64,000 nucleotides of DNA from Diplonema papillatum (taxonomy: Eukaryota > Euglenozoa > Diplonemea > Diplonemida > Diplonemidae), in contig JAPJBO010000426.1 of NCBI GenBank assembly GCA_030068145.1, forward strand, positions 123,496 to 187,495, read 5' to 3'. Below the pieces are notes generated by a model that did no database searches, was not told the origin of the DNA, and was given only the letters and a program-made list of their open reading frames with translations. Made by a program: the position numbers and the translations under genes. This document shows, in pieces, positions 19,857-60,957 of this stretch (its first letter is position 1; each line of letters starts with the position of its first letter).

Positions 19857-19865
19857 CCTCTCTTA

Positions 19866-21871: not shown

Positions 21872-24754
21872 GACCCGTTGCCGTATGCGCGGGGGCAGGA
21901 CCCCGCCCGGCAGAAGGCAGAGCGGGCCATCCGCGATTTCGAACGGCGGAACGCCCGCGAGGAGCAGCGCACGCGCTGCCAGAACGTGCAGGCCGGCTCC
22001 GGGTGCGTCGACTCCGACGACGGCGCCGACCCGCCGCCGCCGGCGCCGCCGCTGCCCTCCTACGGCGGAGGGCAGCCGGCAGCCGCCGCGCACGTCCTCT
22101 GCGACCAGCTCCGCCAGCTGCGCGACGCGCACCAGCTACTTGGCAGCAGCAGCAGCAACAAGCGCGGGCAGCCTATAAAAGTGAACCTCCGCCTCAACTT
22201 CGTCGACGTCGGCGCCGCCGGCTCGCGCCCGCCGCCCCGCCTCCTATCCGAGCCTGATCCCGCCGCCGACAGCGCGCACGGCTCCGCTCCCCCCCCGCCG
22301 GAGCGCCGGTTTTCGAAGGCGAGCGTCTCCGCCAGCGACGCCGCCGCCGCCGCCGAACCCCCGTCCTTCGACGGGGGCAGCGCCGCCCGCCGGCCGTCGT
22401 CCCAGCTGCAGCAGCTGCAGCAGCTGCAGCAGTCGCAGCAGTCGCAGCAGCAGTCGCAGCAGCAGTCGCAGCAGCAGTCGCAGCAGCAGCCGCAGACGCT
22501 GGTCCACGCGCGGGCGGCGGGGGGCTACGGGCTGCTGGTCTCGGCGCCGTCGCCTCCCGAGTCGCCGCCGTCGGCGCCCGAAGCGGCGCTGCCGGACTGC
22601 TGGGACGCCTCCCGGACCGACCTGGCAAGGGTCCGCGGAGCCCCCTACCACCACCACCATCACCACTCCCACCACCACGACCCTTTCCCCCACGCCGCCC
22701 GCGCCCGCATGCTGCCGTTGCGGCCCCCGGTGCACGTCGCGGGGCTGTCCCCGGGGTCTCCTGTCTTCGAGTCCGGCGACACCCGCGGGGACCGTAGCGG
22801 TGGTGGCGGTGGCGGCCGCCCCCCCGCGCACGCCGCTGTGTACCGCACGCTCCCGTCGCCTCGCCGGGGCGCGGGCGGAGAGCCCGCTGGCGGCAGCTGC
22901 GGCCCCGCCGCGGCGCCGGGCCGCGGGGCTTCTCTTCCGTTCGCCCGGGGAGAAGAAGGAGGAGGAGGCTTCGCCGCGGTGCCGGGCCGAGGATCCTCTG
23001 GTGGCCTCCGACCGTTGCCCGAGTCGCCTTTCCTTATCGCCGGAGGAGAAGAAGGCGGAAGTGAAAGAGGAGGGGGTGCGGCGGGAGGCTTCGCCGCGAT
23101 GCTGGGCCGCGGAGGCCCCCCTGGCGTTCTCCGACCGTCGCCCGAGTCGCCCTTCCTTCCGACCGCCAGTGGAGGAGGAGGACGGGCGGGAGGCTCCGTC
23201 TGCAGCTCCGCCGCGATGCTGGGCCGCGGAGGGCCCCATGGCGTTCTCCGACCATCGCCCGAGTCGCCCTTCCTTCCGACCGCCAGTGGAGGAGGAGGTG
23301 GAGGAGGGGTCGGGGGCTCGGCCCGCAGCTCTGCCGCAACCCCTGGGTCGGGCAAAGGGTGGCCAGCCAGCGCGGGAGCGGCATCGGCGGCGGCAGACCG
23401 CCGCTCTTCGGCTGCCTCCTCCGCCAGCTTTTCCGCCGCCCCGCCGGCGGCTGCGCAGTCTCTCGGCGGCGAAGTTGCGCCTTGGAGGTTGAGTGCCCCG
23501 GATGAAGCGGCGTCCGACGGAGCGACCGAGAAGCTCTTCCTCCCCGTCGGGTTGCAAGGGCAGGACGGTGCGAACTCGTCATTTCGCTCGTCGAGCAGCA
23601 ACCGCCTCGGCATGCAGGGTGGCACGGTGGAACCTCCGTTCGAAGGAGCTGAACAAGTATCGCACCAGTCTCGTGGGGGGAAGGCGTCGGCTGCGTCTGC
23701 CAGGGACGGCGCGAGCTCTGTTCGCACATCGAGCAGCAACCGCCTCGGCATGCAGGGTGGCGCGGCGGAGCCGCCGTTTCAGGAAGCTGGGCAAAAAGCA
23801 CCGGCTGCGTCTGCCAGGGACGGCGCGAGCTCCGTTCGCACGTCGAGCAGCAACCGCCTCGGCATGCAGGGTGGCACGGTGGAACCTCCGTTCGAAGGAG
23901 CTGAACAAGTATCGCACCAGTCTCGTGGGGGGAAGGCGTTGGCTGCGTCTGCCAGGGACGGCGCGAGCTCCGTTCGCACATCGAGCAGCAACCGCCTCGG
24001 CATGCAGGGTGGCACGGTGGAACCTCCGTTCGAAGGAGCTGAACAAGTATCGCACCAGTCTCGTGGGGGGAAGGCGTTGGCTGCGTCTGCCAGGGACGGC
24101 GCGAGCTCCGTTCGCACATCGAGCAGCAACCGCCTCGGCATGCAGGGTGGCACGGTGGAACCTCCGTTCGAAGGAGCTGAACAAGTATCGCACCAGTCTC
24201 GTGGGGGGAAGGCGTCGGCTGCGTCTGCCAGGGACGGCGCGAGCTCCGTTCGCACGTCGAGCAGCAACCGCCTCGGCATGCAGGGTGGCACGGTGGAACC
24301 GCCGTTCGGGGGAGCTGAGCAACTATTGCTCCAGTCTCGTGGGGAGAAGGCGTCGGCTGCATCGGGCAGGGACTGTGCAAGCTCGTCTGTTCGCACATCG
24401 AGCAACGTCCGCCTCCGTGAATACAGTGCGGCGGCCCTGTCGGGACGAGGCATCTGGAGCGACAACCGGCTTCGAGGAACTCCGTCCGTTGTGTCGACGC
24501 CCGAACAACGCAGCCTGCACCGCAAGATCACCACGACTTCTTCTCACGTGCCCGAAGGTGAGGCGGGCGTCGTCGATTCGCCCGAGAATGACTATTCTCC
24601 GAACTCGGCGTACGACGTCTCGGCTCTGAGCCACGATGCGGAAGCAACCCTCGACCCCGGCACCGTTTCCTTCGATCGCGGCACGTATCCAGCGACAACC
24701 TTCGACCGACCGCCGTCGCACGAGTTTCTGGACAGGGGCGCCTATGCGACTTAG
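21872..24754 (+). CDS. Large low-complexity protein with poly-Gln, His, Gly/Pro tracts and six 46-residue repeats
   Basis: The frame is open from a CAG acceptor at 21870-21871 to TAG at 24752-24754. There is no ATG near the start, so an upstream or trans-spliced exon is expected. Counting from about 21878: a charged helix (ARQKAERAIRDFERRNAREE, 10-30), a Pro block, a Gln tract (176-206), a His cluster (about 256-268), Gly/Ser/Pro-rich disorder (300-530), six repeats of 46 residues (RTSSSNRLGMQGG...EGAEQVSHQSRGGK, 567-831) and an acidic tail (VSALSHDAEATLDPGTVSFD). It looks like an intrinsically disordered scaffold or nucleic-acid-associated protein. No catalytic domain or family is recognised. 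Long open frames on the other strand are composition artefacts. Confidence 0.6.
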   Translation, partial: DPLPYARGQDPARQKAERAIRDFERRNAREEQRTRCQNVQAGSGCVDSDDGADPPPPAPPLPSYGGGQPAAAAHVLCDQLRQLRDAHQLLGSSSSNKRGQPIKVNLRLNFVDVGAAGSRPPPRLLSEPDPAADSAHGSAPPPPERRFSKASVSASDAAAAAEPPSFDGGSAARRPSSQLQQLQQLQQSQQSQQQSQQQSQQQSQQQPQTLVHARAAGGYGLLVSAPSPPESPPSAPEAALPDCWDASRTDLARVRGAPYHHHHHHSHHHDPFPHAARARMLPLRPPVHVAGLSPGSPVFESGDTRGDRSGGGGGGRPPAHAAVYRTLPSPRRGAGGEPAGGSCGPAAAPGRGASLPFARGEEGGGGFAAVPGRGSSGGLRPLPESPFLIAGGEEGGSERGGGAAGGFAAMLGRGGPPGVLRPSPESPFLPTASGGGGRAGGSVCSSAAMLGRGGPHGVLRPSPESPFLPTASGGGGGGGVGGSARSSAATPGSGKGWPASAGAASAAADRRSSAASSASFSAAPPAAAQSLGGEVAPWRLSAPDEAASDGATEKLFLPVGLQGQDGANSSFRSSSSNRLGMQGGTVEPPFEGAEQVSHQSRGGKASAASARDGASSVRTSSSNRLGMQGGAAEPPFQEAGQKAPAASARDGASSVRTSSSNRLGMQGGTVEPPFEGAEQVSHQSRGGKALAASARDGASSVRTSSSNRLGMQGGTVEPPFEGAEQVSHQSRGGKALAASARDGASSVRTSSSNRLGMQGGTVEPPFEGAEQVSHQSRGGKASAASARDGASSVRTSSSNRLGMQGGTVEPPFGGAEQLLLQSRGEKASAASGRDCASSSVRTSSNVRLREYSAAALSGRGIWSDNRLRGTPSVVSTPEQRSLHRKITTTSSHVPEGEAGVVDSPENDYSPNSAYDVSALSHDAEATLDPGTVSFDRGTYPATTFDRPPSHEFLDRGAYAT
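23567..24372 (+). repeat. 138-bp in-frame coding repeat, six copies
   Basis: The period is 138 bp (for example CGCACATCGAGCAGCAACCG at 23975 and 24113). Copy 2 is shortened by in-frame loss. Copies 3-5 are almost identical, a sign of recent expansion or conversion, while the outer copies are more diverged. A seventh, degenerate start (RTSSNVRL) follows. Confidence 0.85.
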
Positions 24755-24870
24755 GCCGCACTTGGCTCCCCACGTAGCGCTGACACTAAGCTGGCAAATC
24801 TTTCGAAGTGATAATGAGAGCCTCAGAAGAGTTCATTTGCGCAGCCGATTCTAACTCTTTCTCGCTCCAG

Positions 24871-25014
24871 CACCACGACTTCTTCTCATCGGCTCTGAGC
24901 CACGATGCGGAAGCAACCCTCGACCCCGGCACCGTTTCCTTCGATCGCGGCACGTATCCAGCGACAGACCGCCATCGTCGCACGAGTTTCTGGACGGACG
25001 CCTATGCGGCTTAG
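24871..25014 (+). pseudogene. Duplicate of the 3' end of the 958-codon gene
   Basis: CACCACGACTTCTTCTCA and GCCACGATGCGGAAGCAACC through TATGCGGCTTAG repeat 24531-24754 with about 75-80 bp missing internally and a few substitutions. The stop codon is included. From 25015 to 25814 no gene is recognised. Confidence 0.75.
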
Positions 25015-25814
25015 GTCGACATTCAATGCAAAGCCTTCCTAGCCTACCCTCTCTTACGCTACGACGAGGCCCTCTCGTAGGCCTTCCGTTGAACGTTGTA
25101 CATTCCTCTTTTGTGTGAGTAGTCTCATTTTGTCCACCATTTTCGGTCTATTTTGCCGTGTTAGAACCAAAAAGAAACGTTGTTGCAAACTGCGCCGAAG
25201 GTTTCTCTCTCCTTCCGGTCCTTTTTTCACACAACAGCAAAACCACGCATCTCTTTTCACCAAATACTTGGTGTGCAAGTACCCACAAGGGCATTGGTTT
25301 GCATTGGCCCAGGAGGTATGTGAGCGGGTGATCATTGGCAGATCCACAGGTCGAAGATACAAGCACGAAGTGTCGGCGATCTTTACCAGGGAGACTGCCT
25401 GCCGCCTACTCCGGCACGATGACCATAGAATAGCGCATGGAATATCGGCTGACTCCACCAAATAAGGAGAGCATCGCAAGTTCTACTCGGCGGGCGTGCT
25501 ATGGTGCACTTGCTGTGCTACTTGTTGTAGTGGAAGGCAGGAAACGGTGAACCCAGCTCCTCATGCCTATACTTGTGCTTCCAAGATGCAACCTCCATGC
25601 TTCAGGCCGTGACAACGCATGGACATGCACACCAGTCTCCGCCCTGTGTGCGTGGGTAAAGAGTCCGAGCCTACCAAAAAGACCTCAACACAAAGCAAGT
25701 TGTCGACAACTAACAAGTAACAAGTAAAAACAATAGAACAAAACTACGCATTTCTTTCGGGAAGGGAACCCGCAACCGTGTGGGTTGCTACAAATGGCAC
25801 CCCACCGGCTACCA

Positions 25815-29300: not shown

Positions 29301-32300
29301 CTACCGTCCGCTAGCTCGGATACTCCGTCCGCTACCGTCCGCTAGCTCGGATACTCCGTCCGCTACCGTCCGCTAGCTCGGAAACTCCGTCCGCTACCGT
29401 CCGCTCGCTCGGATACTCCGTCCGCTACCGTCCGCTAGCTCGGATACTCCGTCCGCTACCGTCCGCTCGCTCGGATACTCCGTCCGCTACCGTCCGCTAG
29501 CTCGGATACTCCGTCCGCTACCGTCCGCTCGCTCGGATACTCCGTCCGCTACCGTCCGCTAGCTCGGAATACTCCGTCCGCTACCGTCCGCTAGCTCGGA
29601 TACTCCGTCCGCTACCGTCCGCTAGCTCGGATACTCCGTCCGCTACCGTCCGCTAGCTCGGATACTCCGTCCGCTACCGTCCGCTAGCTCGGATACTCCG
29701 TCCGCTACCGTCCGCTAGCTCGGATACTCCGTCCGCTACCGTCCGCTAGCTCGGATACTCCGTCCGCTACCGTCCGCTAGCTCGGATACTCCGTCCGCTA
29801 CCGTCCGCTCAGCTCGGATACTCCGTCCGCTACCGTCCGCTCGCTCGGATACTCCGTCCGCTACCGTCCGCTCGCTCGGATACTCCGTCCGCTACCGTCC
29901 GCTAGCTCGGATAACTCCGTCCGCTACCGTCCGCTAGCTCGGATACTCCGTCCGCTACCGTCCGCTCGCTCGGATACTCCGTCCGCTACCGTCCGCTCGC
30001 TCGGATACTCCGTCCGCTACCGTCCGCTAGCTCGGATACTCCGTCCGCTACCGTCCGCTAGCTCGGATACTCCGTCCGCTACCGTCCGCTAGCTCGGATA
30101 CTCCGTCCGCTACCGTCCGCTAGCTCGGATACTCCGTCCGCTACCGTCCGCTAGCTCGGATACTCCGTCCGCTACCGTCCGCTAGCTCGGATACTCCGTC
30201 CGCTACCGTCCGCTCGCTCGGATACTCCGTCCGCTACCGTCCGCTAGCTCGGATACTCCGTCCGCTACCGTCCGCTAGCTCGGATACTCCGTCCGCTACC
30301 GTCCGCTAGCTCGGATACTCCGTCCGCTACCGTCCGCTAGCTCGGATACTCCGTCCGCTACGTCCGCTAGCTCGGATACTCCGTCCGCTACCGTCCGCTA
30401 GCTCGGATACTCCGTCCGCTACCTCCGCTCGCTCGATACTCCGTCCGCTACCGTCCGCTAGCTCGGATACTCCGTCCGCTACCGTCCGCTCGCTCGGATA
30501 CTCCGTCCGCTACCGTCCGCTAGCTCGGATACTCCGTCCGCTACCGTCCGCTCGCTCGGATACTCCGTCCGCTACCGTCCGCTAGCTCGGATACTCCGTC
30601 CGCTACCGTCCGCTAGCTCGGATACTCCGTCCGCTACCGTCCGCTAGCTCGGATACTCCGTCCGCTACCGTCCGCTCGCTCGGATACTCCGTCCGCTACC
30701 GTCCGCTAGCTCGGAAACTCCGTCCGCCACCGTCTCGCTAAACTCCGTCCGCTACCGTCCGCTAGCTCGGAAACTCCGTCCGCTACCGTCCGCTAGCTCG
30801 GATACTCCGTCCGCCACCGTCCGCTCGCTCGGATACTCCGTCCGCCACCGTCCGGTAGCTCGGAAACTCCGTCCACTACCGTCGGCCAGCTCGGAACTTG
30901 CACCAAGATTCTCTTGGTGCAAGTTGTCCGAAAATCTCTAAGTCGGTTTCCCAGGGGACTCGCCTGGAAAACAGTTTTTGGACTCAGGAATTCTTTGGGA
31001 AATGGATAAGTACAAATAGCCAAAATTTCGAGGATTTGGAATTTTTTGGAAAGTGCGTCGATCAAGTCGTGGCAGCTCGGCAGGTGCCGCCGCGAGTCAT
31101 CAGGAGCCGGTATCGACGAGTCGGACACGCTGTGTTGATGGTGCAGCTGTCAACCAGCGTATAGAGACGTTTTTAGGGCCTGGGGTGGGTAGGTCCCTCC
31201 CCCCCCCCCCCATTTTCGTGGGAAAAAAGTCCGCTATAGTAAAAATCCTCTCCCCCAACGGAGAAGACTAACATTCCGGAATCTCAAGCGAACGTTAACA
31301 CCATAAAGTCCTAACTTAGTCCCCCTATTCTCGCCCTTCACCCCCTCCACCCACTCATACAGACGCTACACGCCTGCGCTTCGCGGTCAGCGGAGTCGGC
31401 TGAGAAGTTCGCGCAGAAGCTCGGCTTCGAGAAGTGGTACGCGAGCTACGAGGAACTTGCGCGGGACGACGAATGCGACGTCATCTACATCGCAACCCCG
31501 CACAACCTCCACCGGGACAACATCCTGCTGTGCGTGGCCGCCGGCCGCAACATCGTCTGCGAGAAGCCGCTCTGCGCGACGCTGCGGCAGGCGGAGGAGT
31601 GCACGGCAGCAGCGCGGCGCAAGGGCGTGTTTTTGATGGAAGGGATGTGGACCCGCTTTTTCCCCGCGACCCGACGAGCCCTCGAAGAATACCGCGCCGG
31701 CAGCGTCGGAGAGGCGGTCATGCTCAACGCGAGCTTCGGGTTCAAAGCGGATGCCGCCCGTGCGAACCCAAGGCTGTACAGACCGGAGCTGGCAGGTGGA
31801 GCAGTGCTGGACATCGGTGTGTATGCCGTGGCGTGGCTGACTATGTTCCTGGGTGAGCCCGACACTGTGCACGCAATCGGCACACTTTCGGACACGGGAG
31901 TCGACTCGCGCGTGAGCGCGCAGCTGTCCTGGGGCGGGAAGTCGTTCGCGGCGGCCAACATCACGTTCGACGCCGCGCTGCCCAACACGGCGACACTTTG
32001 CGGGACCAAAGGCAGCCTCTCGCTGCCGAAGCCGTTCCACGCGCCCGAGACGCTCGTGATCACGAAGCACGAGACCGAACAGTCCGAGACGGTCTACGAC
32101 CCATTAGACCCGCCCGACAGCACGAAGCGAGCCCCCGGGTACAACTTCAACGGGAGCCAAGGGTTCATGTACGAGGTGCGGGCCGTCGAGCAGGCCCTCA
32201 GCGAAGGACTCAAGGAGCACCCGCTGATGACCCACAGCGACACTCTCGTCGTCGCGCGCGTCATGGACAAAATGTTGAAGCAGGTGGGTGTCAAGTACCC

Positions 32301-32310
32301 TTTCGAATGA
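26378..32310 (+). CDS. Dihydrodiol dehydrogenase-like oxidoreductase (Gfo/Idh/MocA family), two exons
   Basis: Exon 1 (26378-26449, 24 codons) encodes MKWGVLSTGAIANDF, the Rossmann-fold nucleotide-binding turn (GxxxxGxIA). Exon 2 (31363-32310) begins TLHACASRSAESAEKF after acceptor CATACAG and runs to TGA. The splice keeps phase 0, with donor GGG|GTATGT. The joined product is 339 residues, close to the ~335 of animal dihydrodiol dehydrogenases. Further family marks are DVIYIATPHNLH, IVCEKPLCA (catalytic Lys in CEKP), FLMEGMWTRFFPA, AVLDIGVYAVAW and GTKGSLSLPKPFHAP. The family uses NAD(P) to oxidise trans-dihydrodiols or reduce sugar and dicarbonyl substrates in the cytosol; the substrate here is unknown. 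The 3' end is duplicated downstream. Confidence 0.8.
26803..26866 (+). pseudogene. Stray fragment of the oxidoreductase exon 2, inside its own intron
   Basis: CGTCGTCTGCGAGAAGCCGC and the following bases to GCGGAGGAGTGCA match 31545-31600 with very few changes (VVCEKPLCATLRQAEEC). The flanks are unrelated, so only about 60 bp were copied. Confidence 0.75.
27743..27956 (-). CDS. Possible small exon on the antisense strand of the intron
   Basis: An ATG at 27956 opens a frame with helical, protein-like composition (SAAKGLLVSSVLAAWDRVHG then LLEEVETGK). It ends at a strong donor GAAA|GTGAGT, with stop codons only after it. No homology is recognised and no partner exon is seen. It lies between the FB4 left end and the satellite, so it could be a gene fragment carried by FB4. 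Confidence 0.25.
27966..30880. repeat. 31-bp minisatellite, about 90 units
   Basis: The unit contains GCTACCGTCCGCTAGCTCGG followed by ATACTCCGTCC. Three positions vary between units: GCTACC/GCCACC, CTAGCT/CTCGCT and GATACT/GAAACT. The array is interrupted once by unique sequence (28810-28949) and resumes in the same orientation. Variants are denser at both ends and units are most uniform from about 29560 to 30400, as expected if unequal exchange homogenises the centre. Confidence 0.95.
28810..28949 (+). other. Unique island within the satellite with intron-like borders
   Basis: The island starts CCGCAG|GTGACCTCG and contains a long pyrimidine tract ending CTTTCTTCTAG at 28917, so 28810-28917 looks exactly like a 108-nt GT-AG intron. 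The following GCAGTTCTCGTCAGACAATA (to 28949) is unique before the repeat resumes. Confidence 0.45.
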
Positions 32311-32339
32311 GACGCCTTGAAGCCAAACCAAACACCTGC

Positions 32340-32453
32340 TGTGACCTCGATGGAAGTCAGGTGTTCCTGTACGAGGTGCCGGCGAGCAGACCCTCTACAG
32401 AGCACCCGCTTATGACCGACAGCGACGCTCTCGTCGCTCGTGTCAGGGACTAA
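32340..32453 (+). pseudogene. Older decayed copy of the oxidoreductase C-terminus
   Basis: GSQVFLYEVPASRPSTEHPL then MTDSDALVARVRD is a diverged, shortened version of GSQGFMYEVRAVEQAL...HPLMTHSDTLVVARVMD. Because it lies inside the 572-bp unit and recurs at about 32912-33020, it must predate that duplication. Confidence 0.65.
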
Positions 32454-32474
32454 AAGACACGTGCATGCGACGAC

Positions 32475-32882
32475 GACTCGCGCGTGAGCGCGCAGCTGTC
32501 CTGGGGTGGGAAGTCGTTCGCGGCGGCCAACATCACGTTCGACGCCGCGCTGCCCAACACGGCGACACTTTGCGGGACCAAAGGCAGCCTCTCGCTGCCG
32601 AAGCCGTTCCACGCGCCCGAGACGCTCGTGATCACGAAGCACGAGACCGAACAGTCCGAGACGGTCTACGACCCATTAGACCCGCCCGACAGCACGAAGC
32701 GAGCCCCCGGGTACAACTTCAACGGGAGCCAAGGGTTCATGTACGAGGTGCGGGCCGTCGAGCAGGCCCTCAGCAAAGGACTCAAGGAGCACCCGCTGAT
32801 GACCCACAGCGACACTCTCGTCGTCGCGCGCGTCATGGACAAAATGTTGAAGCAGGTGGGTGTCAAGTACCCTTTCGAATGA
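32475..32882 (+). pseudogene. Recent copy of the oxidoreductase C-terminal half
   Basis: It is nearly identical to 31903-32310 (one visible change is EGLKEHP to KGLKEHP) and keeps the same stop. It lacks the Rossmann fold and the CEKP lysine, so it cannot encode an active enzyme on its own. Confidence 0.8.
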
Positions 32883-33284
32883 GACGCCTTGAAGCCAAAC
32901 CAAACACCTGCTGTGACTTCGATGGAAGTCAGGTGTTCATGTACAATGTGCCGGCGAACAGACCCTCTACAGACACTCGTCGTCGCTCGTCTCATGGACA
33001 AAATGTTGAAGCAGGTGGGTGTCTAGTACCCTTTCGAATTAGACGCCTCGAAGCCAAATCAAGCCAAGCGACACTCAACTGCTGATGAGCATGGGCGAAC
33101 CCAGCCCGCTAATGTTCGACGACCTGATGAGTCTCATGCTTCTGCAATTCCCATTGACTATCGCGTCTGGCCGCGGTCTTCATCGTTCCCAGAGCCAAGA
33201 CATCCACCGATAAGAGCAATTGATGCCACCCGCAGTTGAGCCGACGGGAACAGTTGTTTCGCCTCCGATTGCTCGGAATTTTTG

Positions 33285-33480
33285 ATTTTCCTTCATGAGT
33301 GCCATGTTTGGGGCATCTCTGCCCCAAACATGCCATACAAACGTTCATAGCCTCGGCCCTGCTCTGCGCCTCCGATCGCTCGGTATTTTTGATTTTCCTT
33401 CATGAGTGCCATGTTTGGGGCATCTCTGCCCAAACATGCCATACAAACGTCCGTAGCCTCGGCCCTGCTCTGCGCCTCCG
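33285..33480. repeat. Two ~115-bp units each with a 13-bp-stem hairpin
   Basis: CATGTTTGGGGCA, loop TCTC, TGCCCCAAACATG lies at 33302-33331 and again at 33411-33440 with one C lost. The flanks TTTTTGATTTTCCTTCATGA and GCCTCGGCCCTGCTCTGCGC repeat too. Confidence 0.75.
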
Positions 33481-33825: not shown

Positions 33826-34708
33826 TTTTTTGCGGTGTCCGCCGCACGGTTCACTGCTCGGAAAGTGACAAATAGGAGAAGTTCTCAGCAAGTCTGTGCC
33901 ACGCCTTTCTTTTTCTTGACAGCACGTTGCAGTGCAATTGTGTGAGCGCGTAAGTGGAGGGGTAGGCCACAAGATCGTCTCGTGTGTGGGACCGAGTTGA
34001 GGCCAATCTGACACCGAAAAGCGAATTCTTTCTACAGCAGCAAGCAGTGGGGGTTTCAGACCGCGAAAAGGCCCGTGCTGAACAGACGCAAGCGAGAAGC
34101 GGCAAAGTCTTTTTTGCACAGCGGCAGAGTGTTATCCAGCCTCTCGATGAGAACGGCTACCAGCAGCAATGGTTAGCGGATTCACATCCAGATCCCGTGT
34201 CTCCAGCACCGGGTCTATGCGAGTCCGAATGGACCGACGGGCACAACGCACTGAGGAGCCAGCCTTATGGCAGGTTCCTATACGCACGCAGCAGTAGTAT
34301 GCGTCGTTTGAACTTGTTATGCAGCAACAATTTGTGACGATAGACCGCACAAGCCGCTACAGACTACCTCTTTGCACGCGTTGTGTCATGCTTCGGTCGC
34401 TTCGACCGGCGCAAAGACTGCAGCACCGCCAGAGTTTTCTTTCTTAACCCCACCCAACAAGAGTTTTCTTTCTTGGGGACCCCACCCAACAATCCCCCGG
34501 AAAATTTCCGAAAAAGAAGACCGTCGCCCTCGGGACAAAACGGCCCCTTCTTTTACCAAAAGAAAAGATAGAAAATAGCTATTTTTTACACCATTCGCGC
34601 CAGGGGGGTGGAGAGAAGAGAAAAGTAGGCACATAAAAAAATAAAATAAAAAAGCACGTCCCTAAAAAAAACTCGAAGCCGTCCAGAAAGAGAGGCATTC
34701 GCCGCCCG

Positions 34709-38340: not shown

Positions 38341-40356
38341 TGTTACTTTGATCAAACTCACACTAGCTGACTAGTGTGGATTGTCTCAGCCTTACTCCCC
38401 GTCTTCCTACGGCGGGTGTAAGTCGTTTCGTTGGCGCCCTGCGGGGCCTCTGTCCCTGTCAGGGAGGTTGTGGCACTTTTGCGGCGGATTTCGCCACAAT
38501 CGTGGCAGCTGGCGGCGGCCAACCCCGGCCCGCGGCGACCGCAAACCCCGAACCGGAAGGCCCGTTGTTTTAACCGGCGTCAGGAGAAAGGGGCAAAAAT
38601 TCGGGGACACCATGCCCTCCACCACGCGGCAGGGGGTCGGATTCCCAAGAATTTTTCCAGAAACTTGCCACAACTGCCACAAAACCTTTTTGCGGCGTTT
38701 TTTTTGCGGCGGATTTCAATCGTGGCAGCTGGCGGCGGCCAACCCCTGCCTCAGGCGCGCGTTTGGTACCTCGCTTTTCCTTCGATTGCTCGTCCAGGTG
38801 CATCGGTTGCGCGTCGATAGTTGCTTCCTTACGGCGGCGCTTGGGCGATGACCGTGTCGTCTTCTGTGGTGTCGCCGAGGTTGATTGTCGCTTCTTCGTC
38901 TTCGCTCTCGAGATTGGGGTTCGCTCCTCGTCCTCAGCTGCTTTCGGAAGCACCAGCACCACCAGCACCACCAGCACCACCAGTACCACCAGTACCACCA
39001 GTACCACCAGTACCACCAGTACCACCAGTACCACCAGTACCACCAGCACCACGTTGGCGCGCTTCGTTTGCTTCGGCGGAGGTGCTGTTGCCGCGGGGCT
39101 TATCAGCTCCGCCTTCCGCTTCTCCGTCGTCCCGACCCCTCTCGCTACTGCCGCTCGATGGTGCCCTTGCCGACAGCACTGCCCGGGCCGCCGGCTCTGC
39201 ATTAGTCTACATGGTGCGGCGTGTTTTAGTTGGAAGTTAGAATGGAGCTCATCTGTGCCCACCGGTATACGATACCTCAAAGGAACCTTCACGACAATGG
39301 TCATTTGGAGACTTTAAAACCCCGGATCTCTGACACTCTCGAAACGGGCGCAACGGCCCCTCTCTGTGAATTAGCCATGTGTCGCAATGTTTTCCCGATG
39401 GAGTCTCCCCCCACTCCGTGTCGAGTACAGGCCTTCCGTCGCCGGAGACATTCCGACGAGCGACATGTCGCCAAGCCAAGCAACTCACCCGTCACCATCC
39501 CCCCTCCTCATCTCGGCGTCGAAGCTTCACCAGCTTCGGCTAACACCATTTGTTTGCGCCCGTGACCATTGGTTGCGACATACGAAAATCTAGACACTAA
39601 TGCAGCTCAAAGCATCTCCCGAAGACGCGTTTTTTTCAACGCTTTTCCAAGAAAATGATTCCCCATGGCAGAAAAGACACCTCTCCTCAGGTTCGGGGTT
39701 TGCGGTCGCCGCGGGCAGGGGTTGGCCGCCGCCAGCTGCCACGATGGTGGCGAAATCCGCCACAAAGTCGCCTAAAAAAAGTTTTTTTTGGGGCAGTTGT
39801 TGGCAATTTTCCTGGAGATTCTTGGGATTCCAACCCCTGCCGCGTGGTCTCCGAATCTCCGTATCAAGCCAATTTACTGGCTTTGCCCCTTTCTCTCGAC
39901 GCCGGTTAAAACAACGGGCCTTCCGGTTCGGGGTTTGCGGTCGCCGCAGGCAGGGGTTGGCCGCCGCCAGCTGCCACGATTGAAATCCGCCGCAAAAAAA
40001 ACGCCGCAAAAAGGTTTTGTGGCAGTTGTGGCAAGTTTCTGGAAAAATTCTTGGGAATCCGACCCCCTGCCGCGTGGTGGAGGGCATGGTGTCCCCGAAT
40101 TTTTGCCCCTTTCTCCTGACGCCGGTTAAAACAACGGGCCTTCCGGTTCGGGGTTTGCGGTCGCCGCGGGCCGGGGTTGGCCGCCGCCAGCTGCCACGAT
40201 TGTGGCGAAATCCGCCGCAAAAGTGCCACAACCTCCCTGACAGGGACAGAGGCCCCGCAGGGCGCCAACGAAACGACTTACACCCGCCGTAGGAAGACGG
40301 GGAGTAAGGCTGAGACAATCCACACTAGTCAGCTAGTGTGAGTTTGATCAAAGTAA
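38341..40356. mobile_element. Inverted-repeat element FB2 with ~410-bp arms
   Basis: The left arm (38341-38752) and right arm (39945-40356) are almost exact inverses, beginning GTTACTTTGATCAAACTCAC. The right arm is preceded by a diverged extra unit (39690-39915), so the arm contains ~225-bp sub-repeats around TTCGGGGTTTGCGGTCGCCG. The 1.2-kb middle has no transposase. It holds a (CCACCAGTA) array at 38940-39052 and, on the minus strand, a basic stretch KRRRKEATIDAQP that could be a captured gene piece. No clear target-site duplication was found. Confidence 0.75.
38940..39052. repeat. CCACCAGTA / CCACCAGCA nonamer array
   Basis: About 12 units of 9 bp. The multiple of three makes long open frames on both strands (Val-Val-Leu and Pro-Pro-Val runs), which I do not call as genes. 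Confidence 0.85.
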
Positions 40357-40424
40357 CATCAAGGCAGCCCTTACAAAGAGCAGCCACAGTCAACGCCGCG
40401 TGGGTGCGGGCTTTTGCCATTATT

Positions 40425-45080: not shown

Positions 45081-45302
45081 TCCTAACCTCTGATCTCATT
45101 TCTGGGTTGTTTTTGCCTCGAAGGACCCCGCTCCACCCACGCTTTGGCGAGGAGTCGCAGGGCTCGAAGGCAGCTTGCCGGAGACTTAATCCCGACTGGC
45201 TATACTTCGCTTCAGACGCTGCCCACTTTTAACCCCTAAAAAGGTCACACGGAGACCCTAAAACCCCCGTCGTCGGCATTTCAAGCGAACTTTAACTCTA
45301 AA

Positions 45303-45672
45303 AAAAACGTGGTTGTACTTCCGTGACGGGGGCACCACGTTAAAAACGGGTCCTCCAGTGGCACACCCACACCCACACACTAATACCTACAGCTGTCTAC
45401 GAAAGAAGAAGAAAAAAAGGAGTGGAATCCTCGATCCAACCGTGTCACAACGTGGCTGTACTTCTGTGAAGGGGGGCGCCCGCTGCGACAGACACACAGA
45501 GGCAGGTTTGAAAAATGACTGGGCCACCGGTCTTAAACCCTGACTATAACTCTAAAAAGGAAAGGAGTGGAATCCTCGATCCAACCGTGTCACAACGTGG
45601 CTGTACTTCTGTGAAGGGAGGCGCCCGCTGCGACAGACACACGCATACACACGATCACCTACAGCCAGGAGA
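45303..45672 (+). promoter_or_regulatory. Three copies of gene-proximal repeat R8
   Basis: Copies at about 45303-45400, 45427-45510 and 45590-45672 share CGTGGTTGTACTTCCGTGA, a GC-rich middle and a CA-rich tail ending CCTACAG. They lie upstream of the 5' duplicate of the secreted-protein gene. The block GCGGAGTCGCAGGGCTCGAA with CAGACGTTGCCCACTTTTAA often precedes R8 (45130-45230, 46455-46530). Confidence 0.45.
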
Positions 45673-46009
45673 CTTTAAAAACCCGGCTTCCCGGTTTCAG
45701 AAACCGGGGGTTTTCCGGTTTCGGGGTTTCAAAAAAATAAAAAATAATTTATAAATTATGATTTCAAGCGGCCCCTGTACTGTACAGTACATGGTGCGTC
45801 ACGGTGTGTCACTGCAATTCGAAGCTTTCCGCTTACCATCTCCGTTGTTTGATAGACGTGCGCACCACCACCCGTCCCCTTGTTTGCGTGCGCGGGGCGA
45901 CAGTTCCAGGCACTCAGGCACCCTCAGGCGCCGCAGAGCCCCAAACCGGGGTTTTGGCTGAAACCGGCTTTTTTGCTCGGTCAGACAAAGAGCTAAAAGT
46001 CCCCTGCCT

Positions 46010-46428
46010 ACAGCTGTCTACAAAAAAATAACAAGAAAACTCGAAAGACACCAACCCATGTCGCCTTGCGTCGTAGCTGCGTTGGCCGCCTGCCTGGCGA
46101 GCATCACAATCGAAGACCCGCAGGGCGAGTCGATCGGAAGCGGGACCCTGCTGGCGGGCGGCGAGCCGATTTGGACCGCCGGCGGCGCGTGGCGCGCGGT
46201 GCCGCCGGCGCTGGCCGGCCTGCGCGGCGCGGCGGGCGGCCGGCTGCTGCTGCGGGGGACGATGGCGCGGTTCGCGTGCGGCGCCGGGCCGCGGTGCGTC
46301 TTCTTCGTCATCGCGCCCCGGTGCTCCGCCTGCGGGTACAGCGGCGGCATCGTCGTGCCGGCGCTGCTGGCGCAGGGCGGCTGGACCCGGGGCCGGTGCG
46401 CCCCGAAGCTTTCGGTCGCAGGGCGGAA
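46010..46428 (+). pseudogene. Duplicate of the 5' end of the secreted-protein gene
   Basis: It matches 46699-47117 at an offset of 690, including the leader CTGTCTACAAAAAAATAACA, the ATG at 46058 and the first ~122 codons, with one change (WTAGG versus WAAGG). It then diverges, and a stop follows at 46433. It retains the signal peptide and could give a short secreted product. Confidence 0.8.
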
Positions 46429-46609
46429 ATCCTGAACGATCCCGCCCCACCCACCCTTTGGTGCGGAGTCGCAGGGCTCGAAGGCAGCGTGTCGGAAACT
46501 CAAATTTACTTCAGGCGTTGCCCACTTTAACCCGTAACACAACGTGACTGTATTTCAGCTAGCTGCGACTCGACTGGCTGTACTAACGCTTCAGACGTCG
46601 CCCGCTTTT

Positions 46610-46712
46610 AACCCGTAACACAACGTGGTTGTACTTCCGTGAAGGGAGGAGCCACGTCAAAACGGGTCCACAAGAGGCACACGCACACGCACGAATACCT
46701 ACAGCTGTCTAC
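46610..46712 (+). promoter_or_regulatory. R8 copy directly upstream of the secreted-protein gene
   Basis: AACACAACGTGGTTGTACTT, CCGTGAAGGGAGGAGCCACG and a CA-rich tract end in ACCTACAG, 46 bp before the ATG. The leader that follows includes GTCGAAAGACACCAA, which also occurs in the LINE 3' untranslated region near 58146. Confidence 0.45.
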
Positions 46713-46747
46713 AAAAAATAACAAGAAAAGTCGAAAGACACCAACCC

Positions 46748-48598
46748 ATGTCGCCTTGCGTCGTAGCTGCGTTGGCCGCCTGCCTGGCGAGCATCACAAT
46801 CGAAGACCCGCAGGGCGAGTCGATCGGAAGCGGGACCCTGCTGGCGGGCGGCGAGCCGATTTGGGCCGCCGGCGGCGCGTGGCGCGCGGTGCCGCCGGCG
46901 CTGGCCGGCCTGCGCGGCGCGGCGGGCGGCCGGCTGCTGCTGCGGGGGACGATGGCGCGGTTCGCGTGCGGCGCCGGGCCGCGGTGCGTGTTCTTCGTCA
47001 TCGCGCCCCGGTGCTCCGCCTGCGGGTACAGCGGCGGCATCGTCGTGCCGGCGCTGCTGGCGCAGGGCGGCTGGACCCGGGGCCGGTGCGCCCCGAAGCT
47101 TTCGGTCGCAGGGCCGAACAACGCCACGCAGCAGACAGTCGTCGCCAGCCGCGTCGTGGCTGCCGGAAGCACCGTCGAAATCGAACTGCCGGAAGCAGTG
47201 CACTTGATGGCATTCGCCGAGCGGACCGGTGTGTCCGACTGCCACGCAGCAGGGATGCAGGATTGCATCGCCGACGACGGCTGCTCGTGGGAAGGTGGCG
47301 TCTGCACGTTCCAAGACTGCAGCGTCTCCCCGTTGGACGATGCATCACCAGATGCGGACACAGCGGACGGAGACGAAGACACACAGGCAGGTTGTGAGGG
47401 CAGCTGCGTGGCGACAGAGGAGTTCTGCCCGGTGACGCCGCAGCCGATCTCGGGTTACCACTCGGACTTCGAGTGCAAGGGTGACCTGCTGTCGTCGAGG
47501 AACCCGCGGGTGCGCATCGCCCGCGACGTGAGCCACAGCGGCACCGGCGCGCTGGAGATGGACTGCCTCGGGCGGGCGTGCAACTTCCACGGCCACAGCC
47601 AGGTCATCGCGATGCCGTCCCACGTGGCGTACTCCGCCTACTACCACTCGACCGGCAAGAACTTCCGCGGGTGCTTCCAAATCGGCATCGAGGCTGAGGA
47701 CAGCATCAGGGTCGTCAGGCAAGACGTCACGCTGGCGAGCGTGTCCCTTGGGCAGGGGTCTACGAGCACGTTTCCCGACTCCGTGACACTCGGCGTCTGG
47801 AGGCGTGAAGAGATGCTGCTGGACTGGGAGCGGATGGTCGTTGCGTACCACGTGGATGGCAAGCTCGTGAGCCAGCAGAGGATTCCGCGTGACATGCCGC
47901 GGGTTTCGCACCAGTTTCTGCTGCACGTCGTCGACGCGAAGGTGGCGTTCGACTCTTTGTACATCACCGCCGACAACACAACGTTGGAGGGCCACCCCAT
48001 CAAGTTGTGCACGCCGTCTCCGCACGCGACCTGCGGCGTCACCAACAGCTTCGACTGCGTCTCGGACCAGCCGGCTGGGCATGTGTACAACGACGTGAAC
48101 CAAGTGGTGGCAGTGACCTCGGCCCAGTCGCTGGGCGGCGGCGCTGCGTTCGAAGTCAACTGCACGTCGCCTGGCGGAGTGCGGCCGTGCCTCTTCGAGC
48201 TGCCGATGACCGGCGAGCGGCCGAAGCGGGTGTCGTTCGCGGCGAGGATCGAGTACGCCGGCCCTGCCCACTCCGTCAACGGCGCGATCATCAGCGGGGC
48301 GCGAGCGGGGAACGCGTCGTCGGCGGTCGGGTTCTTCGTGCAGGCGGCAGCCCCGCACGTCTTGGCCCGGTTGGGCGACACGGCGGCGGTCGAAGTGCAG
48401 CCGGCGCTGTTGGCGCACCGCGTCTGGCACTCGCACGTCATCGACATCGACTGGCGCGACCTCACCGCCACGTTCTTCGTCGACAACCAGCAAGTCGCTC
48501 ACGCACAGCTTGACAGTGACACCTCCGTGTTTCCGCACTTCCAGATTTACGTCAAGGACGCCCACGTGTTCTTCGACCAACTAGCCGTCAGCTGCTAG
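46748..48598 (+). CDS. Secreted protein with two tandem jelly-roll-like (lectin/glucanase-type) domains
   Basis: The ATG at 46748 starts a short signal peptide (MSPCVVAALAACLAS). Residues 20-150 are Gly/Ala-rich with several Cys. A small Cys-rich module (GMQDCIADDGCSWEGGVCTF, about 175-197) and an acidic linker follow. Two homologous domains of about 190 residues come next: the first ends WERMVVAYHVDGKLVSQQRI, then HQFLLHVVDAKVAFDSLYI; the second ends WRDLTATFFVDNQQVAHAQL, then HFQIYVKDAHVFFDQLAV. The DWxxMxxxxxxDGxxV and FD.L.I patterns fit concanavalin A-like jelly rolls that bind or cleave glycans. The product is probably secreted or surface-exposed, with disulfides. Single exon, stop at 48596-48598. 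The family assignment is tentative. Confidence 0.65.
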   Translation: MSPCVVAALAACLASITIEDPQGESIGSGTLLAGGEPIWAAGGAWRAVPPALAGLRGAAGGRLLLRGTMARFACGAGPRCVFFVIAPRCSACGYSGGIVVPALLAQGGWTRGRCAPKLSVAGPNNATQQTVVASRVVAAGSTVEIELPEAVHLMAFAERTGVSDCHAAGMQDCIADDGCSWEGGVCTFQDCSVSPLDDASPDADTADGDEDTQAGCEGSCVATEEFCPVTPQPISGYHSDFECKGDLLSSRNPRVRIARDVSHSGTGALEMDCLGRACNFHGHSQVIAMPSHVAYSAYYHSTGKNFRGCFQIGIEAEDSIRVVRQDVTLASVSLGQGSTSTFPDSVTLGVWRREEMLLDWERMVVAYHVDGKLVSQQRIPRDMPRVSHQFLLHVVDAKVAFDSLYITADNTTLEGHPIKLCTPSPHATCGVTNSFDCVSDQPAGHVYNDVNQVVAVTSAQSLGGGAAFEVNCTSPGGVRPCLFELPMTGERPKRVSFAARIEYAGPAHSVNGAIISGARAGNASSAVGFFVQAAAPHVLARLGDTAAVEVQPALLAHRVWHSHVIDIDWRDLTATFFVDNQQVAHAQLDSDTSVFPHFQIYVKDAHVFFDQLAVSC

Positions 48599-48687
48599 AC
48601 GAAGCGACTCCACCTGCCAGTCTCCTTCCTCCCAACCTCTCAGAAGCACTCAAAGAGTTATTGGAGAAACAGAACGCACACAGTTTT

Positions 48688-48850
48688 TGACAGCGACGCC
48701 TCCGTGTTTCCGCACTTCCAGATTTACGTCAGGACACCCATGGGTTCTTCGACCAACTGGCTGTCAGCTGCTAAGCGAGCGACTCCACCTGCCAGTCTCC
48801 TTCCCAACCTCTCGGACGCTCAAAGAGTTATTGGAGAAAGAGAACGCCTG
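48688..48850 (+). pseudogene. Duplicate of the 3' end of the secreted-protein gene
   Basis: It matches 48511-48675 at an offset of 177: TCCGTGTTTCCGCACTTCCA, a stop in the same place (GCTGCTAAG), and the untranslated CTCCACCTGCCAGTCTCCTT. One base loss shifts the frame. From 48851 to 49494 no gene is recognised. Confidence 0.75.
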
Positions 48851-50241: not shown

Positions 50242-50244
<3 letters not shown>

Positions 50245-51689
50245 ATTTGCGGTTGTCGGGGGTCCTCCGATTCCGAGTATTTCGTACAACCCCTTCCGGA
50301 CGGAGGGCAGGGGGAAGGTTTTCCAGGCGCGGACTTCCGAAACGTATCCAGTTCCCTGCTTAAAACTCGAAAGCAGCCTCGAAAAAAAGTACACGAAACG
50401 GAGACGCCACAAGAAGACAGACAGTCATCTACTACGGCACCATACTGAGGAGGGCGCTTCGGTCCAAGCGTCCATTAACGCGGGCCGGGTACCTGTACTC
50501 CCAACCGTCGACTACTGGAAGAGGAGACTCAGGGCATGGTGTAAAAACTTGACTTTCTTTGAACCAATTACGCCCTGAAGGCTGTGCGGAGTTCTCCTAT
50601 CGCCAGAAGCACGACGCGGTACGATAGTCATCTAGTTGCCAAATGTCCACCCGGAAACTTTGAAACTCCGCGAACTTTTACTACAAAAAGAGAGAGATAA
50701 AGCATCCATTTTTTTTTTGCGTATCTTTCATTCAATCCCCGCCGTCCTCCTCCCTCTGTCACAGCAGGCGTGCCGAGACGCGAGCAAGGCGAGACAGCTT
50801 CCGTTCGCAGGCATCGGCGATGCCGCAGGATGAGCGCCGCCAGCTCGCGGGCCTCGGCGCGTGCCTCCCTGTTTCCTTGCAGCCTCCCACACTTCCCCTC
50901 AAAGAAGACTTGATGCTAGCATCAACCGTGCATGAGAGAGTGCTCTGCCTAAGCATTAAATGGTGGGATCCACAGTAGAAAACTTAACTTGACTCCAAGA
51001 ACTTCCCAAATACTTCCCAAATGGGGCAACATAATAAAATGCCGTGGGAAAAAATATCAGCGAACCTTACACTCTAACAACCCGTGTGTTTTTTTTCCCA
51101 CTCAGGACTTTGACCTGTTGTGTTTGTGTGTCTTGTCGTGTAGGGGTAGACCCGCATGACCTCACGTCCGTTCAACACCACTGTTGTTGTCGCTCTGCGG
51201 AGTTTACTTCGCAGATTTTGTTTGTGCGCACTTCCTTCAATGTCAATCTAACGGGAGTGAGGATATTACGCTGCCGTCGATCTGTTTTTTGTTCTTGACA
51301 AATTGCATTTGTTAGACACGCGCCTGTGCTCCGGTAGCACGGGGCTTTGAGGCGAGCAATTACGCCTTGCCTTAGGATCGACTGACCCATGTCCAATTGC
51401 TGTTGACACGGAAACCGTCCCCACTTCGGCATTCAATGTTCTCCATTGAATATTCTCTACTACAACAAGATCTGCACTCATCCACGCTCCATCGAGGCGC
51501 ACGCCAACGACTTCGCGGCGTGGACCATGCACTCCTACGCACGCCTGGCTTTGTGATACCAGTACGCGGCCAACTATGGGAGCATCGCTTGAGCATCATC
51601 CATTTTCGGGACCGGTGCATTCGGCAGGTGAGTTGCTGCACTCTCATTATCGGAGTGCCGACCATGGCCACCGTCCTGCTGTCAAGATG

Positions 51690-51975
51690 AACCGCACCCT
51701 TTGTGTGGGTGGCTGTGACGAGCTACGAACAGCCTGACAAACCAGACTCACGCCGCTGTCCTGTCCGCAGACGCTCAGGTTCCGCGCTGATGACGGTCCG
51801 CCTTATATGTCCGTGGCTTAAAGGACCGAAACACGGCGCAGGCACAGTGCGTTGCTCAGGGTACTGACAAACACACTACCGCAACAAATTGTGGGTGGTG
51901 GCCCCTCCCAACAGCCTCCCTGGCCCTGGCCCACGCCATTCCAAGCACGTTCTTGCAACCCCCCCTCCCCTTCAA
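51690..51975 (+). repeat. Dispersed repeat R4, copy with CCCTGG seed
   Basis: GTGACGAGCTACGAACAGCC, TCCTGTCCGCAGACGCTCAG and CACGCCATTCCAAGCACGTT. It contains TCCCTGGCCCTGGCCCACGC at about 51913, two units of the hexamer that is hugely expanded at 61405. Other DNA from 50242 to 51689 has no recognised gene. R7 copies are at 50907 and 52301. Confidence 0.65.
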
Positions 51976-58200: not shown

Positions 58201-58697
58201 CCGAAGACGACAATGGTGACCTGGTGCAACTCGAAGAAAACGGACTCTTCGTGAGGAGAAACCGCACCGATAGTCGCGACACTGCGGTCCGTAAGCGACT
58301 ATCTTCTGATGTACCACCTCGTTGCCTCAGCGCACAAGCCCTGCGGACACTGCGGAACCTGCGTGGAGCTACGGACCTCCTCCAAGCACTCACCCGAAGA
58401 GTCATCATGCCGTTCAAAACCCGCAACGAGTGCGCCGTAGAAGGCTGCAGCCACCGAGGAACCGCAGATCATGTCCTGACGGCTAGCGATGAACGACATA
58501 TTTCTATGCTACGGACCCGAAGCCAACCTCACGCGACCTTTCAGACAAATATTGGATGAATTTGCAGCCCGCAACACAGCAGTCATACTGTCTGTTTGCG
58601 CGCGAGTCCGCTATCAGGAGCCCAGCGGAAAAGCAACAGAATGGGCCACTTGGCTAGTGCACGCGATCAAGTCTAGCTCGAAGATAATCCGGTGAGG
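58201..58697 (+). pseudogene. Second 5'-truncated copy of the same LINE
   Basis: It starts at CCGAAGACGACAATGGTGAC, homologous to 57557, immediately after the A tract of the first copy (offset 644). It carries a 15-bp deletion and a small insertion that shifts the frame at about 58500, and has no 3' UTR. Confidence 0.7.
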
Positions 58698-58729
58698 ATG
58701 ATTATAATGCTGATGCCCATCGAGGCGAC

Positions 58730-58902
58730 TTGTTCGGCGAGTTTCGGTATGCAGAGAGCTGCTGCCTAGACACCGGAAAACGCTTGTGCACGCTTGCGGA
58801 GCTGGAGGGCGACAAGTGCTGCAGCGCCGGCTGCGTGTTCAGGGACGTTCCCATTTGGTTCGACAACTGCGCGGACGAGCCGTGCGTCCACGGCTCACGT
58901 TT
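58730..58902 (+). pseudogene. Cys-rich domain fragment of unknown protein
   Basis: The frame reads ESCCLDTGKRLCTLAELEGD then KCCSAGCVFRDVPIWFDNC. GKRLCTLAEL with following GC, W and C resembles a small disulfide-rich extracellular module, but I cannot name it. The frame is closed by LINE 3' UTR sequence from 58903, so it is an exon remnant. Confidence 0.35.
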
Positions 58903-59040
58903 CTTTTGGGAACCCCACGATCGCCACAAGCACGCACTAAGCTGAACCTCACAAACACACAAAATGTCAAAGGACACCAATTTGTACGCCCATTCGGAAT
59001 CGTGGGAAACACAAAACAAAAAAAAAAAAAACAAAAAAGA
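58903..59040 (+). mobile_element. LINE 3' UTR fragment with A-rich tail
   Basis: TTTTGGGAACCCCACGATCG through CGTGGGAAACACAAAAC aligns with 58085-58190 and ends in an A-rich run. It places a third LINE 3' end less than 50 bp before the glycosyltransferase start. Confidence 0.7.
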
Positions 59041-59081
59041 CAACACGCAGGGCGCCAACCTTGAGGAGGTGGGGGCAGAAC

Positions 59082-60218
59082 ATGGCACGTCGCAGCATGT
59101 TGCTGATCGCTGCGGTCTTCTTCCTCGGCGGCCTGTGGATTGGCCCGTTTCATCTACTAGCGCCTGACCCTGCTGAGTTCACGAGACCACTTCCAGTACC
59201 TCCGCTAGTACTCAACACCAGCGCTCCGACACCAGTACCCGAACCAACACCAGCACCAACGCGAACACGAGACTACGAGCGTCTTTGGGAGCATATGAAA
59301 CTGACATTGGACAAGGGACAGACAGATGAACAAGTCATCCCTGTCTTCGGGACAATGTGTACAGACGCGGACATTTCCTTCATGAAGGGGCTGCTGCTGG
59401 CGATCAATGTTGGGGTCAGGGCGTTCTTCGTTACGACAAATGGTGTGACAGATGCGGCCTTGTTGCACTTTTTGCAAGAGGCCGCAGCTGCGTACGGGCC
59501 CGACAAATTCTACTACGTCCACCATGAGAAAAACGTGGGCGTCGCGCCAGTTTGGAACACAGTGCTGTACTACGGCTTCGAGATGCACAACTACTCTTGG
59601 GTCATGATCGGCAACGCAGACCTTCACCCCCACCGGGGACAACTCGCGCCGTGGCTTAAGTGGGTTTACTCGGGTGACAATCTTGAACGGTGTGCGAACG
59701 TGTAGTTCACACCTCACTGGGCCATGTTTGGGCTGACTCGTACAGGGTATCGAAAGCTTGGCATGTTCGACGAGAATATGTGGCCGGCCTACGGGGAAGA
59801 CGTCGAGTACGTCGTCCGGGCGCAGGCTGCGAAACTTCCCCTTTGCAAAGCAGTGCCGCAGCCCACCTTCACGCACAATACCGCCACCAACATGAAAGTT
59901 AACCCCGAGCTCAGGGCGATCGTCAGCCGGTTCCGCAACGGTGTTGAATACCTGCGAGCCAAGTGGGGCTTCGACATCTTCAACCACCCGGAACCTATCG
60001 TCAACCACTTCATGCACCCCTGGAACAACCCGAATATCTCGTACTCGACGTGGGTGCTCGACCCAGTCCTGCGGCGCTGCATCGAAACTGGTGAAGGACC
60101 CAAGGCAAAAGGCTTGTGCGCCTACAATCTGGCGGGCCTGAGACCGCTCATCGAGCAGAACAACCGACCGGCCGCGTTCGTGTACAGTTGGATGAACAGG
60201 ACCACCTCGCCAACGTAA
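59082..60218 (+). CDS. GT2-like glycosyltransferase, type II membrane protein, one in-frame TAG
   Basis: The ATG at 59082 gives MARRSMLLIAAVFFLGGLWI, a short cytosolic tail and signal anchor typical of Golgi glycosyltransferases. A Pro/Thr stem (about residues 30-65) precedes a GT-A-like catalytic domain: VIPVFGTMCTDADISFMKGL, KNVGVAPVWNTVLYYG, VMIGNADLHPHRGQL (DxD-like position), then TPHWAMFGLTRTGYRKLGMF and YGEDVEYVVRAQ (ED of the catalytic base region in GT2). The final residues are VYSWMNRTTSPT. One TAG at 59703-59705 interrupts an otherwise perfect 379-codon frame between DNLERCANV and FTPHWAMF. It is a nonsense mutation, a read-through codon or a sequencing error. Donor and acceptor sugars are unknown. 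Confidence 0.65.
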
Positions 60219-60807
60219 ACGGACAGCTTCTGCTCACACCGTCACCATCTCCTCTGGTACACTGCACTCGGACGGATATGCAGACGGGCCACACGGTACC
60301 CTCAGCATCCTCCTAGATGCACTACAGGTGTGTGGTACCCTGTGGTCGGTGTACACAGTGCACTGCTACGCGTATACGCGTATGCACATGCGCTGATGCA
60401 CAGGCAGGCCATACGTTCAGCATGCTGAACGTACTGATTTCAGCACGTTAATTTCGTTCTACTTAAATGCCGCCACTGTGGTGTTACAACAACACGGTCC
60501 GGCAAACCCGTTCGCAAACGTGTTTGGAGTTATCAGCACGTACTATCGTTTCTGCATCTGGGGAATCAACCGCAGTACCGGGGATTCCGGTCGGCAGATC
60601 CTGCTGTTGCTTACCACCGCGACATTGGAGGGTTAAGGCCGGAGAGGAGGCAGCGGCAAAGACATGCACCACTGGCAGGTGAGCCCCCCTATGCTCTATT
60701 TCTTTATTGCCTGACCCTACGTACTGATTTTCAGTAGGTATTTAGCTCCCAGACTAAAGAGCTGCGTAAGCCCTGTGCACAGGTGCGTTGATGCCGGGAT
60801 CCTTGGT

Positions 60808-60957
60808 CAGTCCTGCGGCGCTGCATCGAAACTGGTGAAGGACCTAAGGAAAAAGGCTCGCGCGTCTAGAATCTGGGCGGGCCTCAAACCGCTCATCGAG
60901 CAGAACAAGCGACCAGCGGCCGCGTTGGTGTGCAGGTGGAAATGCTCGACGTAGCTG
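60808..60957 (+). pseudogene. Decayed duplicate of the glycosyltransferase 3' end
   Basis: CAGTCCTGCGGCGCTGCATC and CCGCTCATCGAGCAGAACAA match 60064-60210 at an offset of about 744, with around 15 substitutions and in-frame stops. The DNA between (60219-60807) has no recognised gene. Confidence 0.7.

Follow-up and report, generated by a model that had tools for sequence, protein, structure and literature searches.

The copies of gene 3′ ends found downstream of several genes in this stretch of Diplonema papillatum DNA are genuine DNA duplications. They look like one outcome of an unexceptional duplication process, short-range and same-strand, by which gene heads and non-genic DNA are copied too. 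The window is the whole stretch analysed, 64,000 nucleotides reaching the contig end (C426:123496-187495), in an assembly of 271 Mb and 2910 contigs. Copies within it were found by self-alignment (BLAST cut-off 1e-8) and checked by pairwise gapped alignment, and the region around 24871 was also read directly. The initial annotation had proposed that five genes are each followed, on the same strand, by a copy of their own 3′ end. Both kinds of alignment confirmed all five, with offsets of 341, 572, 177, 744 and 1716 bp, as follows.

24530..24758, + strand: source, 3′ end of a 958-codon ORF, stop at 24752-24754 (alignment and direct reading)
24871..25018, + strand: downstream copy of the 958-codon ORF tail, minus 73 bp of the source (direct reading, alignment)
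31902..32454, + strand: source, 3′ end and flank of a GFO/IDH/MocA oxidoreductase, stop at 32308-32310 (Pfam PF22725, E 2.5e-17)
32474..32973, + strand: downstream copy of oxidoreductase tail 31902-32401, 98.6% identity, +572 (self-alignment)
48510..48677, + strand: source, 3′ end of a 616-codon ORF (secreted protein), stop at 48596-48598 (alignment)
48687..48847, + strand: near-adjacent downstream copy of the 616-codon ORF tail, 88.7%, +177, 9-bp gap (alignment)
60064..60192, + strand: source near the 3′ end of a glycosyltransferase-like ORF, its stop lying outside (alignment)
60808..60940, + strand: downstream copy of 60064-60192, 88.0%, +744, adjoining a dispersed repeat (alignment)
18146..18411, + strand: source, end of a USP/UCH-like coding piece (PF00443, positions 197-251 of 254, E 3.6e-9)
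19862..20117, + strand: decayed downstream copy of USP piece 18146-18411, 73.7%, +1716, 12 indels (alignment)

Chance is not a sensible explanation for five tail copies at this cut-off. The tail copies are 74-99% identical to their sources, in line with the range of decay first described. The stop codon, which all of the copies had been said to include, is present in those of the 958-codon ORF, the oxidoreductase and the secreted protein, but the glycosyltransferase and USP copies end short of it. The former stops 23 bp before the source stop at 60216-60218, and the TAG that follows it belongs to a dispersed repeat of about 298 bp that starts at 60940 and is also found in sample stretches L018, L023, L025 and L026. 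The USP alignment ends at 18411, ahead of its frame's stop at 18418-18420. The copy of the 958-codon ORF starts at 24871-24872 with bases of 24530-24546, after which 73 bp are missing, and this absence accounts for the offset of about 341 bp; from there, 24620-24758 aligns with 24889-25018 at 89.9% identity. For the oxidoreductase, gapped alignment extends the pair to 32454/33003. An in-frame TAG interrupts the ‘glycosyltransferase’ at 59703-59705, and its two pieces gave no Pfam match of weight.

Two further readings can be weighed on the copies themselves. An assembly artefact might be suspected from the two copies that are more than 98% identical to their sources (31902, 46007), but most copies differ by at least 5%, carry their own indels and have different flanks, which makes this reading extremely improbable. 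It is also highly unlikely that the copies are retained as alternative last exons. A pyrimidine tract and AG resembling a splice acceptor does precede the 24871 copy, and the oxidoreductase copy stays open (ORF 32465-33085), but indels that are not multiples of three occur in seven of the nine tail copies examined, the exceptions being the oxidoreductase copy and the one at 24871, which is net in-frame.

The list of five proved to be selective, as the same window holds two extra partial copies of the oxidoreductase, upstream copies of gene heads and direct pairs away from predicted coding segments. Those with contact to genes are the following.

32344..32454, + strand: older partial oxidoreductase copy, from 32144-32272, 71% (self-alignment)
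32973..33062, + strand: further partial oxidoreductase copy, from 32242-32331, 91% (self-alignment)
46007..46428, + strand: upstream copy of the 616-codon ORF head, with leader and ATG, source 46698-47118, 98.8% (pairwise alignment)
15614..17292, + strand: 350-bp array, an intron-plus-exon-start unit present four times upstream of coding segment 17143-17478 (repeat search)

We see that the oxidoreductase tail was duplicated repeatedly (32344-32454, 32474-32973 and 32973-33062), and that an rDNA fragment begins 3 bp beyond the last of these (33062/33065). Direct pairs that make no contact with predicted coding segments include 45416/45561, 53894/54077 and 40673/40983. The pair 57557/58201, which involves a 255-codon ORF, was considered as a sixth gene-tail case and rejected, as the copy does not reach the stop and the ORF belongs to a dispersed sequence, which is probably a mobile element. 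An A-rich tract lies after the copied flank of this pair (after 59006).

The same kind of duplication was then surveyed in 25 stretches of 10 kb (250 kb) from 24 other contigs, which were picked by place, with no random-number generator, and are biased to long contigs. Of the 25 stretches, 20 contain direct pairs within 5 kb (L018, which carries rDNA, and L021, a repeat cluster, are included), and the identities of these pairs, 68-99%, indicate many ages. When pairs were merged within 2.5 kb, with L013 and L021 left out, direct components outnumbered inverted ones by 34 to 4 in the sample and by 27 to 4 in the window. These data support the earlier idea of one common, continuing cause. Most of the direct sample components (29 of 34) touch no predicted coding segment; the five that do are in L008, L012, L019, L023 and L026. 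For pairs whose source piece is unique within the fetched DNA, there are 82 direct and 5 inverted, where pairs internal to arrays are not independent; L013, L018 and L021 were left out of this count, of the simple-pair statistics and of the edge-coverage test below. The simple direct pairs (n = 48, at most 2.5 kb apart and at least 60 bp long) have length quartiles of 116, 141 and 228 bp and a maximum of 789 bp. A gap separates the two members in 40 of these, and 8 are adjacent or overlapping. Among those with at least 95% identity, five of six are gapped, one of them (46245) being half of the 46007 pair with a gap of 269 bp. The share of bases lying in local direct pairs is 6% in the sample vs 23% in the window, which is thus the richer of the two. 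Fragments of rRNA genes, about 40-400 bp long, occur roughly once per 13 kb, and in places (33062/33065, 60940) a copy adjoins an rDNA piece or a repeat. The L018 SSU has a divergent, shortened sequence.

An excess of copies at gene 3′ ends across the genome had been predicted, and this was assessed on a small scale using sample edges and four gene families. For the edges, predicted coding segments from a codon model, which was trained on the same sequences to which it was applied, were compared with circular shifts of the duplication map. In the sample, duplications cover 2 of 17 predicted stop codons (1.37 expected, p 0.40), 3 of 27 coding-segment 5′ edges (1.67 expected, p 0.23) and 2 of 27 3′ edges (1.67 expected, p 0.51). 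In the window, 3 of 10 5′ edges (2.3 expected, p 0.43) and 5 of 10 3′ edges (2.3 expected, p 0.053) are covered, as are 3 of the five strongest gene ends (1.17 expected, p 0.10).

The families were searched in the whole genome and comprise 186 loci (PF00160, 53; PF00179, 31; PF00112, 17; PF00071, 85). Partial local copies are present at nine of these (about 5%), with 3′ fragments downstream at five loci and 5′ fragments upstream at four, as listed from the family tables.

C221, C1430, C301 (two), C738, C168, same strand: C-terminal fragments downstream
C304 (two), C1278, C292, C137, same strand: N-terminal fragments upstream

The DNA at all nine loci shows direct repeats, which confirms the copies; C301 is an exact tandem of a 331-bp unit, and C304 has an exact 639-bp tandem plus another copy beyond a dispersed repeat. 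All nine lie outside the gene and on the matching side, as is expected from tandem geometry. None of the 186 loci in the four families had an opposite-strand neighbour within 3 kb, and PF00179 and PF00112 gave no partial local copies among their 31 and 17 loci. Set aside from the count were C129 and C61 (overlaps of 26-27 positions, which may be exons), C569 (2.4 kb apart), the full-length tandem copies at C71, C150, C40, C553 and C1847, and C348 (same ORF). Under a 25-position overlap rule, splits that resemble exons (C655, for example) do not enter the count, and the search cut-off misses short or decayed copies. Neither PF00106 (19 of 101 candidates scored) nor PF00443 (149 of 935 scored, mostly near-identical ORFs) was used for counting. 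For PF00271, the 129 rows were inspected only visually and gave one clear local copy, at the helicase locus C360, which lies upstream (95%) and appears as a direct repeat in the DNA; it was kept out of the counts because both matches start at profile position 38.

Taken over the sample and the families, these counts show no 3′-end excess beyond the window, and the notion that gene 3′ ends are the target finds no support: sample stops are covered at near expectation, and family loci divide 5 to 4 between tails and heads. An excess of tails over heads and over random positions was absent outside the window, and within it alone the test gives p 0.053. The window, with its five listed tail copies vs two head copies, does lean toward the 3′-end view, yet the pattern was first noticed there and the count is not independent. 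A true 3′-end bias of modest size on top of general local duplication, arising for example if more breaks occur where transcription ends, could account for the covered 3′ edges and the tail cases of the window. It fits poorly with the stops of the sample and the even split of the families, and we judge it unlikely, although the sample and the families offer low counts (17 stops, 9 family loci), which are compatible with a modest bias.

Whether the copies derive from DNA or RNA can be judged from their content. The initial annotation had suggested reverse transcription anchored at the 3′ end of an mRNA, with insertion beside the source gene, and it is true that the listed copies are gene tails on the same strand. 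The A-rich tract after 59006 might be taken in the same sense, but the ORF there is dispersed and is not among the five. This reading is contradicted by several observations. Copies of 5′ ends are found upstream of genes too, in both the window and the families. No poly-A tail stands behind any of the five listed copies, and the three window copies that include a stop end at varied positions, 4, 79 and 144 bp beyond it. At C137, the copy (L041 413-713 vs 1129-1438, 87%) spans exon 1, a putative GT donor and about 47 bp of intron, the intron being deduced from where the next match falls on the profile. Since this copy crosses the putative splice donor into the intron, which should be absent from a retroposed mRNA, it was made from DNA; it is a single case, and a 5′ copy. 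We therefore regard reverse transcription as very improbable.

In sum of its observed properties, the duplication is direct in orientation and local, spans many ages, occurs away from predicted genes, is nearly balanced between 3′ and 5′ ends (in small numbers) and in one case has a DNA origin. In sample, window and families the copies lie near the source and, but for the few inverted components of sample and window, on the same strand, as local partial duplication predicts. We consider it likely that short-range, same-strand DNA duplication acts genome-wide and is blind to genes, with selection filtering the copies at gene edges. The units would be tandem or near-tandem and mostly 100-650 bp long, with copies usually within 1-2 kb of the source. 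A unit across a 3′ edge would leave the gene intact, with its tail, stop and flank repeated behind it, and a unit across a 5′ edge would leave a head copy in front of the intact gene. Units that break genes would mostly be lost to selection, such that survivors appear as a gene's own end, on the same strand and just outside it, and their remnants would decay. The copies probably form when breaks are repaired from a nearby template, or when fill-in at breaks produces tandem duplications. As 40 of the 48 pairs are gapped, purely tandem duplication would have to be followed by trimming or insertion. The gaps seen in young pairs, together with the copies that adjoin rDNA or repeats, favour insertion of sequence copied from a nearby template during repair, and the exact tandems and strong direct bias favour exact tandem duplication that was later trimmed. 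Replication slippage at gene ends had also been put forward; slippage or template switching may be at work, but not as a process bound to gene ends. The results thus argue against a tempting mechanism specific to gene tails, and suggest instead a simple rule, whereby local direct duplication across a gene edge yields a same-strand copy of that end just outside an intact gene.

Partial gene duplication is already well known. A review (PMC3449122) describes partial duplicates that are largely tandem, with incomplete copies common among young duplicates in several animals and often decaying. Incomplete and decaying copies are seen here too, but these are short, often serial, just outside the source and derived from both gene ends; what may be new is a potentially high rate. 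The human repair-mediated duplications of Pace et al. 2009 (PMC2671141) have donors within 5 kb, a median length of 147 bp and lengths up to 619 bp, with long-lasting activity and some chimeras with a second donor. They are inserts in transposable elements proven by empty sites in related species, and donors less than 50 bp away were excluded. The pairs described here resemble them in their nearby donors, their median of 141 bp and the copies that adjoin rDNA pieces or repeats, and by their quartiles they fit the distance and length ranges of that set (donor within 5 kb, about 50-620 bp), given that the search covered distances up to 2.5 kb and lengths from 60 bp. They differ in coming from one genome, in which the copy direction and breakpoints are putative. 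In mammalian cells with induced breaks, fill-in at the ends of breaks is reported to give small tandem duplications (PMC8355091); those arise at double-strand breaks as direct tandem copies, and ours, which may have a similar origin, are likewise direct. Our literature search, mostly without subscription papers, turned up nothing that we recognised as describing this genome.

It is conceivable, though we hold it only tentatively, that local copying is unusually active in this species and linked with a form of break repair by which rDNA pieces are captured as well. If so, it would offer a natural system for studying how partial gene duplicates and new exons arise, and should the apparent abundance extend across the genome, the species would lend itself to work on partial gene duplication and repair-linked sequence gain. 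Tandem arrays with many different periods are abundant in the window itself, and internal repeats fill parts of the 958- and 1165-codon ORFs.

Scattered fragments of the rRNA genes and their spacers, about 40-400 bp long, were found both in the window, which holds six, and in stretches of 10 kb sampled by place from other contigs of the same genome, where 17 were counted over 23 stretches (L013 and the rDNA-carrying L018 being left out of this count). Numerous different regions of the unit are represented, in both orientations, and in L007 an LSU fragment encloses an SSU fragment (4548-4793).

rDNA fragments by location
Window 33065-33310
Window 34180-34260
Window 51344-51705
Window 61935-62047
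Window 63473-63564
Window 63583-63622
Sample stretches L006, L007, L015, L016, L019, L025, L026, L027 and L030

An rDNA unit occupies L018 1157-6673; its SSU, just 1374 nt long, aligns with the model over its full extent. Genome-wide, 5.8S genes of equal score lie on many contigs; of the 9961 first-look candidates, 40 were scored. Different contigs carry numerous ORFs, about 1562-1585 codons in length, whose USP/UCH-domain scores are equal (149 scored of 935 candidates; for example, C981:18350 and C166:117156); these have the appearance of a mobile element that codes for a ubiquitin protease. The USP/UCH-like coding piece of the window may be related to these ORFs.

A dispersed sequence (window 45120-45419, 46434-46730 and 21793-21867) directly precedes the 616-codon and the 958-codon ORF, whose 3' ends are copied downstream; it may be a repeat, or else a leader or promoter that the two have in common. 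The glycosyltransferase-like ORF (59061-60218) is interrupted by an in-frame TAG at 59703-59705, with an identical frame on either side, and may therefore be a pseudogene.

Two direct repeats of 98% identity (3764-4098 and 5737-6072) bracket a minus-strand ORF of 527 codons in an LTR-like arrangement; this ORF resembles reverse transcriptase weakly (PF00078, E 0.025), at a level that falls below the cut-off. Repeat pairs are mostly direct, an unusual case among them being a 417-bp inverted repeat of 99.5% identity, with arms at 38341-38757 and 39942-40358, 1.2 kb apart.
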